Positions 12,850-63,998 of a DNA stretch of 64,000 nt are shown here, piece by piece; the stretch's first letter is position 1, and each line of letters begins with the position of its first letter. The notes beneath the pieces were generated by a model. It saw nothing but the letters and a program-made list of their open reading frames with translations, had not been told where the DNA came from and searched no databases. The stretch is taken from positions 1-64,000 of the forward strand of contig JACPWC010000095.1 of the NCBI GenBank assembly GCA_016197225.1, read 5' to 3'. The position numbers were made by a program, and so were the translations under genes. Source of the DNA: Chloroflexota bacterium (GTDB lineage Bacteria > Chloroflexota > Anaerolineae > Anaerolineales > VGOW01).

Positions 12850-13665
12850 GTGCTTGACTATCTTGCTATCGGCCACATTGCTCAGGACATCACGCCTAAC
12901 GGCATTCGACTGGGCGGCACGGTTGCCTACGCCGCCCTCACTGCCCACGCGCTCGGCCTGCGAACCGGCGTCGTCACCGCCGCCGCGCCGGGCGCGGTGA
13001 CCGACGGTCTCGAGCGGCTCACTCTGCATTGCCTTCCCTCGCCACGAAGCACCACCTTTGAAAATAAATACGGCCCGAACGGGCGAACCCAGACTCTGCA
13101 CGCGCAGGCCGGGCCGTTGACGTTCGACTCGGTTCCCGCCGAGTGGCGGGCCGCGCCCATCGTCCACCTTGCGCCTATCGCCCGCGAAGTGGATGCCGAC
13201 CTTGCTAATCGCTTTTCGAGCGCGCTCGTCTGCCTCACCCCGCAAGGCTGGATGCGGCAGTGGGACGGGGCAGGGCGAGTATCAAAGTCGAAATGGGAGT
13301 CGGCGGAGTCGGCGTTGAAATCGGCGACGGCCACCGTGATCAGCATTGAAGATGTGTCGGGCGACCGGGATTTAATCGAACACTGGGCCGGCATCGCCAA
13401 TATCTTTGTCGTCACCGAAGGCGGGAACGGGGCCACCGTCTTTCAGCGGGGAAGCCGCTACCATGTCCCTGCCCCGGCTGTGGCCGAAGTGGATGCGACC
13501 GGCGCGGGCGACATCTTTGCCGCCTCGTTCTTCGTTCGCTTCTGGCAAACGCGCAACGTGTTAGAATCGGCCCGGTTCGCCGTTGCCCTCGCCAGCGACT
13601 CGATCACGCGAGTTGGCATTGACGGAGTGCCTAAACAAGACTCAATATCCAATACTCAATACTGA
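12850..13665 (+). CDS. PfkB-family carbohydrate kinase
   Basis: A 271-residue ribokinase-like sugar or nucleoside kinase. The N-terminal LGGTVAYAALTAHALG stretch is the substrate-binding glycine pair. The C-terminal motif DATGAGDIFAASFF contains the catalytic base Asp221 and the anion hole. It is shorter than ribokinase (about 300). GTG start directly after a heptamer repeat; its last codons run into another one (the sequence DSISNTQY is repeat-encoded). The substrate is not predictable. Confidence 0.85.
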   Translation: MLDYLAIGHIAQDITPNGIRLGGTVAYAALTAHALGLRTGVVTAAAPGAVTDGLERLTLHCLPSPRSTTFENKYGPNGRTQTLHAQAGPLTFDSVPAEWRAAPIVHLAPIAREVDADLANRFSSALVCLTPQGWMRQWDGAGRVSKSKWESAESALKSATATVISIEDVSGDRDLIEHWAGIANIFVVTEGGNGATVFQRGSRYHVPAPAVAEVDATGAGDIFAASFFVRFWQTRNVLESARFAVALASDSITRVGIDGVPKQDSISNTQY

Positions 13666-13712
13666 AAATCAAATATTGAATATTGGGTATTGAGTATTGA
13701 GTATTGTGTATT
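13643..13712. repeat. Inverted heptamer array (ACTCAAT / ATTGAGT)
   Basis: Left: ACTCAAT, ATCCAAT, ACTCAAT. Right: ATTGAAT, ATTGGGT, ATTGAGT, ATTGAGT, ATTGTGT. It covers the kinase stop and ends four bases before the parA start. Confidence 0.85.
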
Positions 13713-16778: not shown

Positions 16779-18314
16779 ATGACTTACGCCACTATTCATC
16801 TGCGCCTGTCGGACGGGCGGGTGCAGTCCTACAACATCGAACAGCAAATCGTCCTTATCGGGCGCGGGGTGAGCAACGACCTGATCATTCCCGACCGCAC
16901 CGTTTCGGCCAACCATGCCCGGCTGACATTCAAGAATGGGCGCTTCACTCTGGAAGACTTAGGCTCGACCGGCGGCACGCTGATTGACAACCAGCCGCTC
17001 GCGCCCAACGCGCCTTACACCCTCAAAGGCACGGAAGCGATCCGGTTTGGCGGCTCAGACGCCCTGCTCAGTCCGGCCAGCGCGCCGCCGCCGGTGTGGC
17101 TCCCGCGCGCGCCGGAGCCGCCGCTGGCCGAAGCCAGGTCCCGTAAGCCCGAAGCGCCGCCCCAGCAAGCGGCGGCTCAACCGCCGCCGCCAACGTCCAC
17201 CCAGCCCGCGCCGCCGCGCCCCATCATCGTCCGGCTCTCGCCCAAACGCTCGCCGCGCGATTTCACCGTCTCGGTCAACTACATGCAACGCTCGACCGAC
17301 GACCCGCCGCGCAAAGTGATTCTGGCCGCCAGCGATGACGCCGATCAGTTGACGTTCATCTTCAAGCCGCAAGTGTTCACCCTCAGCCCGGGCGAGAAGA
17401 AAACGGCCAACTTGCAGGTGAAAGGCAAGCCGGCCACGTTCAACGTGACGGCGGCCAGCGACAGTTTCATCGCCACCACCAAAGGTGAATTGATTCCGCC
17501 CAACCGCGCCATGCTCTGGGTGAGCATCCTGGTGGCGTTTATGATCCTGTGCAGTGGCGGCACGTTTGTCTTTGCCACCTGCCCCACCATTTTCAGTAGC
17601 GTGTGTGGCTTTGTGCCCGACAACCCGCTTTCGGCCCCGCTGTCGTCGCCTACGCCTACGCTCACTTTCACGCCGTCGCTCACGCCCTCCACGACGTCAA
17701 CGACCACGCTCACCTTCACGCCTTCGCTCACGCCGTCCACGACGCCGACAGCCACCTCAACCTCAACGCTTGTGCCCACGCCGAAGTTTGAAAGTGGCTT
17801 GCTGACTTACAAGAGCCAGCAGGCCAACGGCACGTTCTCGCTCTTTGCCCTCCCGGCCAGCGGCGGGCCGGTGCTTTTGCTGGCCAACAAGCTCGACCTG
17901 CGCGTGCTCGACTACGCGCCCGAACTAAAGCTTTTGGCGGTGGACGTGCTGGACGGCGCTTCGCGCAACTTGTATCTTATTCAAACCGACGGCGTGATCG
18001 TGGCCGAGTCGATCAACGACGGCTGGGACTCGATCCGTGACGCCGATTTTTCAGCCGACGGTTCAACCCTGGCTTTGGATGCAATTGTCGGCGGGCAGAC
18101 TCGATTCTATTTCTACGATGCGGCCGGAGAACTTCGGCAACAGTCGAGTCTGGGCACGCCGACTCGAACGGCGACCGCCACCCTCACCCCGTCCGTCACG
18201 CGCACCCCGACCCTGACGCTCACGCCCAGCCTCACCCGCACGCCGACGAACACGGCCACGGCCAGCCGCACGCCATTGCCTACCAATACACCTGCTCCCA
18301 CGGTGACGCCATGA
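16779..18314 (+). CDS. FHA-domain membrane protein with Thr/Pro-rich linkers
   Basis: A 511-residue protein. Residues 1-95 are an FHA phosphothreonine-binding domain (GRGVSNDLIIPDRTVSANHA and LEDLGSTGGT motifs intact). A Pro/Ala-rich linker follows, then a beta domain (about 150-235) and one transmembrane helix (about 246-270). Outside the membrane come Thr/Pro/Ser repeats (TPSLTPSTT), a WD/YncE-like segment (about 340-455) and a second Thr/Pro repeat tail. The topology puts FHA inside and the propeller-like part outside. It probably links kinase signalling to the envelope. A TAAAAT box ends ten bases before the ATG, so a very short leader is possible. It overlaps the lipoprotein gene by four bases. 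Confidence 0.78.
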   Translation: MTYATIHLRLSDGRVQSYNIEQQIVLIGRGVSNDLIIPDRTVSANHARLTFKNGRFTLEDLGSTGGTLIDNQPLAPNAPYTLKGTEAIRFGGSDALLSPASAPPPVWLPRAPEPPLAEARSRKPEAPPQQAAAQPPPPTSTQPAPPRPIIVRLSPKRSPRDFTVSVNYMQRSTDDPPRKVILAASDDADQLTFIFKPQVFTLSPGEKKTANLQVKGKPATFNVTAASDSFIATTKGELIPPNRAMLWVSILVAFMILCSGGTFVFATCPTIFSSVCGFVPDNPLSAPLSSPTPTLTFTPSLTPSTTSTTTLTFTPSLTPSTTPTATSTSTLVPTPKFESGLLTYKSQQANGTFSLFALPASGGPVLLLANKLDLRVLDYAPELKLLAVDVLDGASRNLYLIQTDGVIVAESINDGWDSIRDADFSADGSTLALDAIVGGQTRFYFYDAAGELRQQSSLGTPTRTATATLTPSVTRTPTLTLTPSLTRTPTNTATASRTPLPTNTPAPTVTP

Positions 18315-19378
18315 GAATAGAAGTTGGAAATTGGAAGTTGGAAATTGGAAGCCGGGACACGTTCTACGCTCCGCGCCTCAAGTTTTGCTGCTTACTGCTC
18401 ACTGTTTACTGCCTACTGCTCGCTTCCTGCGTCCCCGCCGGTGTGGCCGATATGGCCGCCTCTGGAGAACAAATGGCGATTGTGAGCGAGGGCGATCTTT
18501 ACGTGGTTCCCGGCTCGTCGCCGGAGATCACGTTTTACGCCCGCCGCCCCGACGTTCGTTTTGCGCCCCTGCTCACGCCTGACGGCGAAGCCGTCATCTA
18601 TGTTGACCAGTTGCATAATTTGATTCGCCAACCGCTCGACGGCTCGGCCCCGATCACCCTGCTCAAGCAGGTGGGCCAGCCCGGGCCGGGCACGGTTGTC
18701 TACCTGCCCAGCGACGAGCTGTTGCTGATCGATTCGTCGTTTCAGGCTATCGGCGAGCACTTTGCCAAAGTGCTTGATCCGGTCACCGGCATCGAGCCGC
18801 AACCGGCCATCACCGGCATTGACCAGGCGTTTGTCACTGCCAACGCCCTCAAGGTGAAGACGAGCAGTTCGCTCACGAACCCGTTCAACGCGGCCCGCCT
18901 TGACGCCAGTGAACCCGGCCAACTCAAAGTGGTCTTCAAGGCCGAGACCTGTTTGATTGCCGAGCAGACCTGTTTGTATTTGTATTCGGCGGAGGCGGAG
19001 GGCTTTGTGTTCGTGGAGCAACTGTCGCGCTCGCTCAAGACGGACATTTTGCTTTTGCTGGCCCGCCGCCCGCAAGACGACGTGACCGGCGGCCTGTTGA
19101 CCAGCGACGGCAAGCACCTGGTTCTGCGCGTGCGTGACGGCTCTCCCATTGGCTCGGCTTTCAGTTTGTATGCCATTGACTTGACGGACAACGACCCGCC
19201 CGTGCCGCTCATCAAAGACGCCCTCAAGCGCCCCGACTTCACTATCGCTCCTGAGGGCAACTGGGTGGCTTACGAGCAAGTAACGAACGGCGTTTCCCAG
19301 GTGGTACTCTACAACTTCGACACGGGGGCGATCAGTTCGCTGGGCACAGGCGCGTCAGACCCGGAGTGGTGGAAGTAA
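18311..19378 (+). CDS. Lipoprotein with propeller-like repeats
   Basis: A 355-residue lipoprotein; lipobox LLASC at about residue 38. The mature part contains Tol/PD40-like strands (ITFYARRPDVRFAPLLTPDG and DFTIAPEGNWVAYEQ), as in six-bladed propellers. It starts in an ATGA overlap with the FHA gene, whose outer region it resembles, so the two may work together on the cell surface. The first 15 residues are encoded by GAARTTG heptamers and the signal core by TTACTGC heptamers: repeat DNA has become the signal peptide. Function is unknown. Confidence 0.7.
   Translation: MRIEVGNWKLEIGSRDTFYAPRLKFCCLLLTVYCLLLASCVPAGVADMAASGEQMAIVSEGDLYVVPGSSPEITFYARRPDVRFAPLLTPDGEAVIYVDQLHNLIRQPLDGSAPITLLKQVGQPGPGTVVYLPSDELLLIDSSFQAIGEHFAKVLDPVTGIEPQPAITGIDQAFVTANALKVKTSSSLTNPFNAARLDASEPGQLKVVFKAETCLIAEQTCLYLYSAEAEGFVFVEQLSRSLKTDILLLLARRPQDDVTGGLLTSDGKHLVLRVRDGSPIGSAFSLYAIDLTDNDPPVPLIKDALKRPDFTIAPEGNWVAYEQVTNGVSQVVLYNFDTGAISSLGTGASDPEWWK
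18317..18352. repeat. GAARTTG tandem heptamers inside the lipoprotein start
   Basis: GAAGTTG, GAAATTG, GAAGTTG, GAAATTG, GAAGCCG in exact 7-base steps, translated as the N-terminus. Confidence 0.75.
18390..18424. repeat. TTACTGC tandem heptamers inside the lipoprotein signal peptide
   Basis: TTACTGC, TCACTGT, TTACTGC, CTACTGC, TCGCTTC in 7-base steps, read as the hydrophobic leader before the lipobox. Confidence 0.7.
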
Positions 19379-26413: not shown

Positions 26414-28084
26414 ATGGCAGCTTCCATCAACGAACTCGAAAGCACCCTCAACGGCTGGCTGAGCTGGTTCCGCTTCCGGCAAATGGTGAACTGGGCGGCG
26501 CGCGGCCTGATGCTGGGGTTGATGATCGCCTTCGGCTTTTCCATCGTCGCCCGGCTCCGGGCCGTGTTCTCGCTGGAACAGTTGATTCAGATCAGCATCC
26601 TGGCCGGGGTGCTCGGCTTTGCCTGGGGCGCTATCGTGGCCCTGGCCTGGCCCTACTCGCGGCTGACGGCGGCCCGCTATTTTGATTTGCAGTTTGACCT
26701 GGGCGAACGCACCAGCACTGCTTTTGAACTGGCGCGGCGGAAGATTGACGCGCCCGCGTGGTGGGTGGACAAACAATTGGCCGACTCGGTTGAAGCGGCC
26801 CGTTCTGTCAATCCCCGCGCTCAACTTCCCATCCGCATGTCGCGGATCGAAATCCTCTCGTTGTTATTGGCGTTTGCTCTCGTCATCGCTTCGTTGGCGA
26901 TCCCTAACGAGCAATTTGCGGTGCTGGCCCAACAGCAAGCCGTCAAAGAAGAAATTGCCGAGCAGGTGGAACAGCTCGAAGCCATCCGCGACAACATCGA
27001 AGACAACCCGGCGTTGAGCGACGACCAGAAGGAAGAATTGACTCAGCCGCTCAACGAAGCCATCGAACAATTGCAAAACCCGGACTTGACTCAGGAGCAG
27101 GCCGTCTCCGTGCTTTCGCAGTCGGAGACTCAGCTTCAGCAGTTGGCCGACCAGAGCGTGCTGGAGCAGGCGCAGGCTCTGCAGAATGCGGGCGAAGGCC
27201 TGTCGCAAAACGAGCAGACTCAGGGGCTGGGCGAAGCCCTGCAAAACGGCGATCTGTCGTCGGCCTCCACGGCTTTGGGCAACATTGACGTGTCGCAAAT
27301 GACTGCCGCCGAGCAACAGCAGTTAGCCCAAACGCTGGAACAAGCGGCGCAGGATTTGCAGGCCACCAATCCTGAATTGGCCGGGCAGCTGCAACAGGCC
27401 GCCGAGGCATTGCAAAGCGGCAACACCCAGGCCGCCCAGGCCGCGCTCGATTCGGCGGCCAGCACGTTGGCCCAAACGGCCTCCCAGGTTGCCCAGGCGC
27501 AGGCGGCTTCCACGGCGGCCGGGCAGGTGGGCAGTGGACGGCAACAAGTCACTCAGGCCGGGTCGGGTCAGCAAGGACAACAAGGCCAGGGACAAGGACA
27601 GGGGCAAGGGCAACAAGGGCAAGGCCAGGGTCAAGGTCAACAGGGTCAAGGTCAACAGGGTCAAGGACAAGGGCAGGGACAAGGACAGGGGCAGGGACAA
27701 GGTCAAGGACAAGGTCAAGGCAGTAGCAATGCTGGCTCTGGCGAAGGCAACGGTGAATCGCAAGGCGGCGAAGCGCCGAACTCGCCCGGCAATGCGGGCG
27801 GCCCGAGTGACGGCGGCACGCGAAGTTATGAGCCGATCTTTTCGCCTTATCGTCTCGGCGGGTCGGGCGGGCCGGAAGTGAATCTTCCCGGAACCGGCGA
27901 CCCCGGCTCGGAAATTGTGGGCGAAGGCCCCAGCAGTCCGCCGACGGATGGTGCGTCGCAAGTGCCGTACAACGAAGTCTACAATCAATACAACGATGCC
28001 GCGCAACACGCAGTTGACAGCGGCCAGGCGCCGGTGACGTTGAAGCCGGTGATCAAAGATTACTTTAGTTCGTTAGAGCCTTAA
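26414..28084 (+). CDS. Gln-rich membrane protein of the MoxR/VWA cluster
   Basis: A 556-residue protein. Hydrophobic helices lie near residues 30-50, 60-80 and 150-165. A long Gln/Glu/Ala-rich helical region (170-385, probably coiled coil) follows, then a pure Gly-Gln low-complexity run (about 385-435), and a folded C-terminal piece with the RSYEPIFSPYRLG stretch. The layout resembles DUF4175-type proteins next to moxR in other bacteria, but identity is not certain. It sits between the ABC permease and moxR. The Gly-Gln run is coded by CAAGGN hexamers and is likely length-variable. Confidence 0.65.
   Translation: MAASINELESTLNGWLSWFRFRQMVNWAARGLMLGLMIAFGFSIVARLRAVFSLEQLIQISILAGVLGFAWGAIVALAWPYSRLTAARYFDLQFDLGERTSTAFELARRKIDAPAWWVDKQLADSVEAARSVNPRAQLPIRMSRIEILSLLLAFALVIASLAIPNEQFAVLAQQQAVKEEIAEQVEQLEAIRDNIEDNPALSDDQKEELTQPLNEAIEQLQNPDLTQEQAVSVLSQSETQLQQLADQSVLEQAQALQNAGEGLSQNEQTQGLGEALQNGDLSSASTALGNIDVSQMTAAEQQQLAQTLEQAAQDLQATNPELAGQLQQAAEALQSGNTQAAQAALDSAASTLAQTASQVAQAQAASTAAGQVGSGRQQVTQAGSGQQGQQGQGQGQGQGQQGQGQGQGQQGQGQQGQGQGQGQGQGQGQGQGQGQGSSNAGSGEGNGESQGGEAPNSPGNAGGPSDGGTRSYEPIFSPYRLGGSGGPEVNLPGTGDPGSEIVGEGPSSPPTDGASQVPYNEVYNQYNDAAQHAVDSGQAPVTLKPVIKDYFSSLEP
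27564..27722 (+). repeat. CAAGGN hexamer tract coding for (Gln-Gly)n
   Basis: About 26 tandem six-base units (CAAGGA, CAAGGC, CAGGGG, CAAGGT variants) within the reading frame. Loss or gain of whole units keeps the frame. Confidence 0.85.
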
Positions 28085-53280: not shown

Positions 53281-55323
53281 CTACACCATGTCACGCGGCA
53301 CGGCAAATGTCCACGTTTTGCTGAAGACGCGCGTGTTCCCCTCGTGAGCATTCACACTGTTCGTGACCCGGAAAGTCGTCGCGTCTGAGGTCATCAGGCT
53401 CGACGTTTCAATGCGAACGCGCCAGTCGCCGCGCCGCAGTTCAGCCGAACGATCACACTTCACCGTTGCCGAGAGCGGGTCGCCTTCGACGATGGTGTAA
53501 GTGTCAGTGTCGTCGTTGTCGTACTCCAAACCGTCGGGATAGCGCGCGCGCCCCGAGTCGTTGTGATCCACCAGAGTGTGTTTGCCGCTGATCAAATCAT
53601 GATGCACTTCACGCGAGCGGTTGGCGACGCGCAAGGTTGTCAACGAGAGCGGCGTGGAAACTTCGGGCGGCTCAAACGGCTGGAGAGTCGAATCGGCAGG
53701 CTGAGCAAATCGCGTAGGCAGATTCAAATAACTGTTTGATCCTGTGAAGAGGGTAAGAATGACAGGCTTGGGTGAGGGCCAGGCAAACGGCCAATACGTC
53801 GGGGAGACCGCCACTCGAATCCGGTGGCCTTTGGCTATCGAATACCCGATTGCGTTTAGCTTCACTGTCACGGTATAACGTTTGCCCGGTTCAACGAGCG
53901 ACGGCTCCTCGTGAGAGTCGCGGTGGGTGAGGTTGAGCAGGCCTCGGGTGATTAACGTCGAAGTCCCCCTTGGTGAAACGTCGCACAGTCGGACAGCGAT
54001 CAGCGCGTTCGGTTGATCCACCGACACGCTCAGAGTTGCTTCGGGGAAGCCGAGAATGTCGAGTGGCGAGTCGAGCGGCGCCGAGTCGAAGCAGAGCGAG
54101 AGGGCGTCGTCGGGGCGCTGATCGGTCGGAAAATCGCCGGGCAGACCATAGGCACACCACACGCCCGCCATCAAGCCATTGGCTTGCGCGCCGGTGAGAG
54201 TGAGTTGAGATTCTGGGGCAGAGGTCTTGGAGAGGCCGTTGTTGGTAATTAGTAATTGGTGATTGGTTATTGAGGCTGGCGGCCAGGTGGAGTCGGCAAC
54301 CCACTTGCCCGGCCAGCGAGGGTGATGCGCGGCAGGCGGCACACTATCCAAAATATAGGAGCGCAACATTGGCTCTTCCATGATGCCAGTGCCGTAGGTC
54401 CCTTTGAGCCAGTAATCCCACCAGCGCAAACATTCCTGGTTGAAGCCGATGGCCGGTTCCGGCACGCCTTCTTCGGGATAGTTATGCGCCCACGGGCCGA
54501 TGAGGCCCTTGCGCGGGCAGGAGAGATTTTCGAACAAACGCGGGATGGCGTTTGTGTAAGCATCGGCCCAGCCGCCGATAGCATAGACGGCGCAGGTAAT
54601 GTCGCCGTAGGGGCGGTTCACGAACCGCCCCTCCTCACACACCGAGCCGTGTTTCCAAAACGCATCGCGCCGCTGGTGCGTAAGCCAGGCCTCGACAAAG
54701 GGCGGCGTGTTTTCGAGCCGGTTGAGCCACATCTCGCGCCAGCGCTCGCCGACGAATTTTGGATCGGGCGGCTTGGCGTTGTAGAGGAGCATGATGGACG
54801 CCCAGGACAGCATTTCGTCGGCCAGCAGACAGCCGCCCATGTAATGCACGTCGTCGGCGTAGCGGTCGTCGGTGGAGCAGACGGTGATGATGGCTTTGAG
54901 TTCGGGCGGCCTGCGGGCGGCGATTTGCAAGCCGTTGAAGCCGCCCCACGATTTGCCGATGATGCCGACGTTGCCAGAGCACCATTTTTGCGCCGCGATC
55001 CACTTCAACACTTCGAGCGCATCGTCCTGCTCTCGAAGCAAATACTCGTCGAGCAGGAGGCCGTCGGAGTCGCCACTGCCGCGCATGTCCACCCGCACGC
55101 AGGCGTAGCCGTGCCCGGCGACGTAGGGATGCCGGATCGAGTCGCGGAGGGCCGTGCCGTCATTCTTGCGATACGGAATGTATTCGAGAATGGCGGGAAC
55201 AGGATTGCTTTCAGCGTCAACCGGCAACCAGATGCGGGCGGCCAGCTTTGTGCCGTCGGCCAGCGGGATGAAGGTGTTTTCGATTTCGCGAGTGGGGTGA
55301 GGGAGGGCGGTTTTGATTTGCAT
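53281..55323 (-). CDS. CocE/NonD-family serine hydrolase (S15)
   Basis: A 680-residue alpha/beta hydrolase of the X-Pro dipeptidyl-peptidase/cocaine-esterase family. Nucleophile Ser125 is in GKSWGGF, the acid Asp probably lies near 275 and the His in GLIGPWAHNYPE. The C-terminal jelly-roll (PepX_C) domain spans about 400-680. No signal peptide. A heptamer repeat (ACCAATN words) encodes SITNHQLLITNNG in the linker before the C-terminal domain. A paralogue lies at 59069. Close to the Opp-like operon, so peptide processing is plausible. Confidence 0.88.
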   Translation of the reverse strand: MQIKTALPHPTREIENTFIPLADGTKLAARIWLPVDAESNPVPAILEYIPYRKNDGTALRDSIRHPYVAGHGYACVRVDMRGSGDSDGLLLDEYLLREQDDALEVLKWIAAQKWCSGNVGIIGKSWGGFNGLQIAARRPPELKAIITVCSTDDRYADDVHYMGGCLLADEMLSWASIMLLYNAKPPDPKFVGERWREMWLNRLENTPPFVEAWLTHQRRDAFWKHGSVCEEGRFVNRPYGDITCAVYAIGGWADAYTNAIPRLFENLSCPRKGLIGPWAHNYPEEGVPEPAIGFNQECLRWWDYWLKGTYGTGIMEEPMLRSYILDSVPPAAHHPRWPGKWVADSTWPPASITNHQLLITNNGLSKTSAPESQLTLTGAQANGLMAGVWCAYGLPGDFPTDQRPDDALSLCFDSAPLDSPLDILGFPEATLSVSVDQPNALIAVRLCDVSPRGTSTLITRGLLNLTHRDSHEEPSLVEPGKRYTVTVKLNAIGYSIAKGHRIRVAVSPTYWPFAWPSPKPVILTLFTGSNSYLNLPTRFAQPADSTLQPFEPPEVSTPLSLTTLRVANRSREVHHDLISGKHTLVDHNDSGRARYPDGLEYDNDDTDTYTIVEGDPLSATVKCDRSAELRRGDWRVRIETSSLMTSDATTFRVTNSVNAHEGNTRVFSKTWTFAVPRDMV
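54244..54275. repeat. ACCAATN heptamer repeat inside the CocE gene
   Basis: On the minus strand ACCAATC, ACCAATT, ACTAATT, ACCAAC in 7-base steps, translated in frame. Confidence 0.7.
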
Positions 55324-63930: not shown

Positions 63931-63998
63931 AGGTGGTTAGGTGGTTAGGTGGTTGGGCCTAACCACCCAACCACCTGACTACCCAACCAACTAGCCGC
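63931..63998. repeat. AGGTGGTT inverted octamer array
   Basis: AGGTGGTT three times, then GGGCCTAACCACCC and AACCACCTGACTACCCAACC as the opposite arm. CCTAACCACC pairs with GGTGGTTAGG. It continues to or beyond the window edge. Confidence 0.8.

Follow-up and report, generated by a model that had tools for sequence, protein, structure and literature searches.

Related repeat systems

Heptamer repeats (STRR) have been described in cyanobacteria, Beggiatoaceae (TAACTGA) and Xanthomonas (GGGAATC), and those of Microcystis mix several heptamer words (PMC4679880, PMC4692102). SPADE analysis reveals heptamers to be the most abundant intergenic tandem repeats of prokaryotes, with no clear clue as to their function (PMC6344855). 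The tracts described here resemble STRR in possessing a seven-base unit and in being dispersed, mostly intergenic and often close to start codons; some STRR sets also lie inside ORFs, where they mostly belong to hypothetical proteins or to protein ends (PMC4679880, PMC4692102). In contrast, the heptamers studied here make up predicted signal peptides and membrane segments in recognisable proteins, and the class of the word matches the type of segment. Enterobacterial RU (MITE-like) units can also be read in frame (Delihas 2007; PMC2759123). These are single elements of 103-168 bp (PMC2759123), whereas here we find tandem heptamers in many words, which differ between orthologues, at positions that are conserved across species.

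Both repeat-derived signal peptides (from MITE-like units) and in-ORF heptamers (TAACTGA) have been reported before. Rickettsia palindromic elements are likewise repeats, found as in-frame insertions in numerous genes, and differ from the present heptamer arrays in that each consists of one longer palindromic unit; we know of no sorting of hydrophobic and hydrophilic words among them. In 1987 Ohno reportedly proposed an oligomeric-repeat origin of coding sequences, in which non-triplet repeat units encode one periodic peptide in all frames; the tracts described here differ in being short and in lying within established genes of a present-day genome, not in primordial genes. A literature search, which covered few subscription journals, found no publication in which heptamer arrays serve as signal peptides or membrane helices of Chloroflexota proteins. 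In this group of uncultured lake bacteria, heptamer repeats of a normally intergenic kind occur within genes and are read as protein; at the locus presented here they apparently form the signal by which a surface lipoprotein is exported.

The lipoprotein gene and its arrays

The gene lies at 18311..19378 (+) of the window, by which we mean the whole stretch of 64,000 nucleotides analysed, and the ORF list and alignment indicate a predicted lipoprotein of 355 amino acid residues. A Pfam search returned no match for this protein itself; its orthologue in genome G004 exhibits a PD40 (WD40-like propeller) match slightly below the Pfam cut-off. The upstream gene in the ORF list (16779..18314, +) specifies an FHA-domain protein (Pfam FHA, E 1.6e-16) with Thr/Pro-rich linkers, the TGA stop of which shares four bases, as ATGA, with the lipoprotein ATG at 18311. 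The start codon and first codons, M-R-I (18311..18319, +), precede array A.

Array A (18320..18354, +), delimited by TRF and a heptad print, is composed of the units GAAGTTG, GAAATTG, GAAGTTG, GAAATTG and GAAGCCG, and encodes the hydrophilic n-region EVGNWKLEIGSR. TRF assigns it a period of 7 over 18320-18350 (4.4 copies, 87% matches) and a period of 14 over 18320-18351 (100% matches). Array B (18388..18420, +), recognized by TRF and hydropathy, is made of TTGCTGC, TTACTGC, TCACTGT, TTACTGC and CTACTGC, that is, about five copies of YTRCTGY; it encodes the h-region CCLLLTVYCLLL and is reported by TRF with a period of 7 over its entire length (18388-18420; 4.7 copies, 76% matches). The 33-base link between them (18355..18387, +; GGACACG TTCTACG CTCCGCG CCTCAAG ...) is degenerate and, in the heptad print, keeps the seven-base register, so that 18320-18424 divides into 15 heptads. 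Both arrays are in frame within the ORF 18311-19378 (translation MRIEVGNWKLEIGSRDTFYAPRLKFCCLLLTVYCLLLASC), as the initial annotation had stated, and the array-encoded stretch comprises residues 4-37 of the protein. Its description of them as pure repeats proved too strict: the claimed five copies of GAARTTG are four clean units closed by GAAGCCG, and, of the claimed five copies of TTACTGC, about five YTRCTGY units are present, only two of which read exactly TTACTGC.

The window contains four period-7 self-match segments with scores of at least 15 and nine with scores of at least 10, versus 0.000 and 0.283 per shuffle, respectively, in 60 third-order-Markov shuffles. Array A scores 15 and array B 10, and array B alone is therefore the weaker of the two. 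Clustering of 41 exact matches places the YAYTGYY class, to which array B belongs, at 27 separate sites of the genome; the control column for this count is imperfect as a null, because the reversed pattern itself matches other heptamer words.

Signal peptide

The predicted signal was assessed from its lipobox, hydropathy and charge and from the conservation among homologues. Residues 1-25, the n-region, carry a net charge of +2, and the core (residues 26-37) exhibits a mean Kyte-Doolittle (KD) hydropathy of 2.71. It is followed by the lipobox L-A-S-C (18419..18430, +; residues 37-40), which fits the pattern [LVI][ASTVI][GAS]C and the Cys codon of which, 18428-18430, falls just outside array B. 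This Cys is invariant in 8/8 aligned homologues, as are M1 and G44. The proposal that the arrays yield a lipobox leader is thus upheld at the level of prediction. Counted against it are the position of the Cys, which at residue 40 from ATG 18311 would be late for a lipoprotein (usually about 15-35 residues), and the choice of our home-made gene caller, which is based on codon usage and placed the start beyond the lipobox, at ATG 18473.

RNA folding gave a z of +2.69 for the window leader, and +1.57 and +0.49 for two other lipoprotein leaders, versus -5.46 to -7.91 for four intergenic tracts; intergenic tracts are often inverted pairs. A function of the leader as an RNA hairpin is ruled out by this result, and the inverted-repeat hairpin of RU/RPE elements is likewise absent.

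Orthologues of the lipoprotein

A search of 301 genomes across the order produced ten full-length matches outside the genus, nine leaders of which were inspected; many short, weak matches, which probably represent other propeller-like proteins, were ignored. All nine leaders possess 17-30 residues before the Cys, and none contains a period-7 segment with a score of at least 8. The expectation that relatives would lack the arrays and start near the lipobox is borne out by these nine. Unexpectedly, the two orthologues found within the genus both exhibit array-made leaders, in words unlike those of the leader presented here. In G002 the leader has 55 residues, with arrays at the same place in the words GCGAAGT, TCACGTT and CATTGTT; in G004 it has 44 residues, again with arrays at the same place, in AGAAGAC and CATTGTT-like words. 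These differences between orthologous leaders suggest ongoing replacement of the words. No orthologue match was obtained in G001 and G003, which are 63% and 76% complete, respectively. The G004 protein is 100% identical to one of Chloroflexi bacterium isolate M_DeepCast_65m_m1_226, the sample series of which we take to be from Lake Tanganyika.

Other array-encoded leaders

A second, unrelated lipoprotein, an M23 peptidase (C107 in genome G000), possesses a leader that follows this seven-base register too. Its gap-free comparison with the window leader reveals 32 differing bases out of 107, 28 of them transitions, and within the inner link 15 of 22 bases are identical, a value reached by only 4 of 20000 shuffles. 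Orthologues of the M23 lipoprotein exhibit GAAG-type n-region arrays in all three species of the genus in which they were found, and an h-region array in G000 only. CcmH has an h-region array in G000 and an n-region array in G004; the leaders of G001, G002, G003 and the readable outgroup loci contain none, and because the three leaders in the genus do without them, arrays are not needed in CcmH. Three consecutive GAARYYR words are found at eight distinct places in G000, three of which are lipoprotein n-regions with YAYTGYY words after them. In unbiased samples of predicted lipoproteins, a tract precedes the Cys in 2/11 (G000), 0/3 (G002) and 1/3 (G004), and in 0/6 of the outgroups.

Mutation of the tracts by transitions only was considered and rejected, transitions accounting for just 105/186 (G000), 18/36 (G002) and 34/62 (G004) of the sampled mismatches; because they do not dominate across the sampled tracts, no special mutator is claimed. 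A further lipoprotein of G004 (L136:1352-1500) has a leader consisting almost wholly of heptamers, first TTCGTCA and later CATTGTT words, after which comes a linker of octamers.

Genome-wide distribution of heptamer tracts

Period-7 segments occur at 9.5, 11.2 and 21.2 per 100 kb in G000, G002 and G004, respectively, versus 0-3.3 in six outgroup genomes, in each of which 16.7-60 kb was sampled. In 464 kb of G000, period 7 yields 44 such segments and each of the periods 4-6 and 8-13 yields 0-11; harmonics appear at 14 and 21. The tracts are dispersed; most census rows are intergenic, often a few bases from a start codon, though gene calls cover about 82% of the sample. Set beside the named families TAACTGA, CCCCAGT and GGGAATC, the words at the locus presented here are GAARTTG and YTRCTGY, and a non-systematic look elsewhere in the genus reveals TCAGTTA-like translations (SYQLSAIS, SSYQLPVIS).

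Other repeats were observed in the window. A heptamer tract at 54242-54272 is in frame as SITNHQLLITNN within a gene of 680 amino acid residues, and an intergenic one at 13636-13712 consists of CAATACT and then TATTGAG words, its start entering the end of the upstream ORF (...SISNTQY). Inverted octamer arrays, AGGTGGTT and AACCACCC, are present at 63931-63989 and are like the octamers after the lipobox Cys of G004 L136. A Gln-Gly repeat (GQGQGQ...) with a 6/18-base period occupies 27580-27720 in an ORF of 563 amino acid residues.

All 16 YAYTGYY words are free of stops in the sense direction, with a mean hydropathy of 0.14 to 2.9 (TTACTGC, 1.96), and 12/16 contain a stop on the opposite strand. 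The GAARYYR words are hydrophilic (-0.21 to -3.03), with a stop in 4/16. The proteins that host these words differ correspondingly. Membrane segments were predicted with a simple hydropathy window. By this measure, 15/16 sense-coding YAYTGYY arrays versus 2/10 GAARYYR arrays lie in a host with one or more further predicted segments (Fisher p 2.3e-4), and 14/16 versus 0/10 in a host with three or more (Fisher p 1.2e-5); genes with three or more segments make up 15.6% of the residues in the G000 sample. Coding YAYTGYY words thus belong to membrane or exported proteins in 15/16 cases and GAARYYR words mostly to soluble proteins (8/10), in a census that counts arrays rather than independent events, relies on our home-made gene caller, and includes all YAYTGYY matches of G000 and part of those of G002 and G004. 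Lipoprotein-leader arrays, the leaders being trimmed by the caller, fall into the 5'-extension class and are excluded from these sense-coding counts. Antisense within called genes are three YAYTGYY arrays and one GAARYYR array; 43 and 21, respectively, are intergenic or 5' extensions. Lipoproteins excepted, the N-terminal extensions in the census are probably untranslated upstream arrays.

An exception to the sorting is the L066 methyltransferase, which has a hydrophobic array and no predicted membrane segment. The clearest example of in-gene tracts is a PMT_2-type membrane protein, the genes for which contain 5, 8 and 9 period-7 segments with scores of at least 8 in G000, G002 and G004, respectively; two CATTGTT-type segments coincide in the alignment of the three; the homologues in G069 and G026 have no period-7 segment with a score of at least 9. 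GAARYYR arrays are also found in frame within UvrA and MutS2 of G004 (L112, L120).

Confinement of the tracts to the genus was ruled out, three consecutive YAYTGYY words being present in 33/400 genomes of a phylum sample. Outside the genus, 25 arrays in 20 stretches were located, two of which are read as membrane segments: both are TACTGTT arrays forming hydrophobic segments of one G086 protein (L235:1482-2561; 510 amino acid residues, 10 predicted membrane segments). Most of the remainder fall outside any ORF of 90 aa, or within ORFs that are short or doubtful. G637 and G432, of the same class, exhibit many matches to the reversed control pattern, which are other heptamer words.

Origin of the leader and alternative explanations

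One critical question is where translation begins. The arrays could be a 5' untranslated regulatory element, as has been proposed for TAACTGA repeats, with the start downstream. Most tracts in these genomes are indeed intergenic, often bases away from a start codon, and the codon-usage caller chose ATG 18473; against this, the in-frame starts 3' of array B (GTG 18443, ATG 18452 and ATG 18473) are all past the lipobox, yet its Cys is conserved into other families, several of which have the start at the upstream stop, and the leader lacks the hairpin seen in all four intergenic tracts folded. The search for a better downstream start, which the initial annotation had named as its refutation, found no ATG, GTG or TTG that omits both arrays and still retains the lipobox, and we regard an untranslated element as very improbable. 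The sole ATG, GTG or TTG codon between the start and the lipobox Cys is TTG 18338, within array A. Translation from it would make half of array A a purine-rich ribosome-binding region and the rest, together with array B, a 31-residue leader; the coding sequence would then still include roughly half of array A and the whole of array B. This codon is in frame, has GGAA-rich DNA ahead of it and would place the Cys at residue 31. The overlap of ATG 18311 with the upstream stop, however, recurs at the G004 locus, the start overlaps or abuts that stop (ATGA, TAATG or direct abutment) in 4/7 outgroup loci read, and M1 is invariant, all of which leaves initiation at the TTG improbable.

A contingency switch, in which a frameshift caused by one heptamer more or less silences the surface lipoprotein, would suit the location, the 5' end of a surface-protein gene being a typical place for phase-variable loci; in silico, one unit added to or removed from either array yields 92 or 55 amino acid residues instead of 355. 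We nevertheless give phase variation little credence: the arrays have only four to five units, broken by variants, the six leaders inspected for this lipoprotein and the M23 one across three species are without exception in frame, and the same class of word occurs within UvrA and MutS2 of G004. Draft assemblies of many contigs, in which repeats are prone to misassembly, also bring to mind an artefact or chance low complexity. This is scarcely credible for DNA that is open and in frame, with nothing as strong as array A in the shuffles, and for an arrangement shared by independent genomes in other words.

We therefore consider it probable that the leader is translated, that it acts as a Sec/lipoprotein signal peptide with an n-region and an h-region spelled out in heptamer DNA, and that the tracts entered or grew in permissive segments and were filtered by function. 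Heptamer tracts of the STRR type abound in the genus, mainly between genes and often as hairpins, and may invade or expand within coding segments constrained in charge or hydropathy alone. Because seven is not a multiple of three, a pure heptamer tract yields a single heptapeptide cycle in any frame. Stop-free, purine-rich words of the GAARYYR type, charged and hydrophilic, would be kept as n-regions and soluble linkers, and YAYTGYY words, stop-free in the sense direction and mostly hydrophobic, as signal-peptide cores and membrane helices. Such survival of fitting words in permissive segments is most likely, and these comparisons are compatible with insertion, in-place slippage and gene conversion. 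More tentatively, and in our opinion rather doubtfully, an active process may write heptamer tracts into genes, so that physically defined segments (signal peptides, helices and linkers) are continually rewritten, including the copying of leaders between unrelated lipoproteins.

Significance

For annotation these leaders serve as a warning, the codon-usage caller having discarded them. In this genus heptamer tracts can be traced into proteins by means of orthologues, array-free outgroups and a simple rule, namely that the word class sets hydropathy in every frame. It thereby offers a natural test system for the sequence freedom of signal peptides and membrane helices, for the spread of heptamers, and for repeats as donors of working coding sequence. 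If true, the active writing of tracts into genes would provide a present-day and testable example of the idea that non-triplet repeats can act as raw coding sequence.
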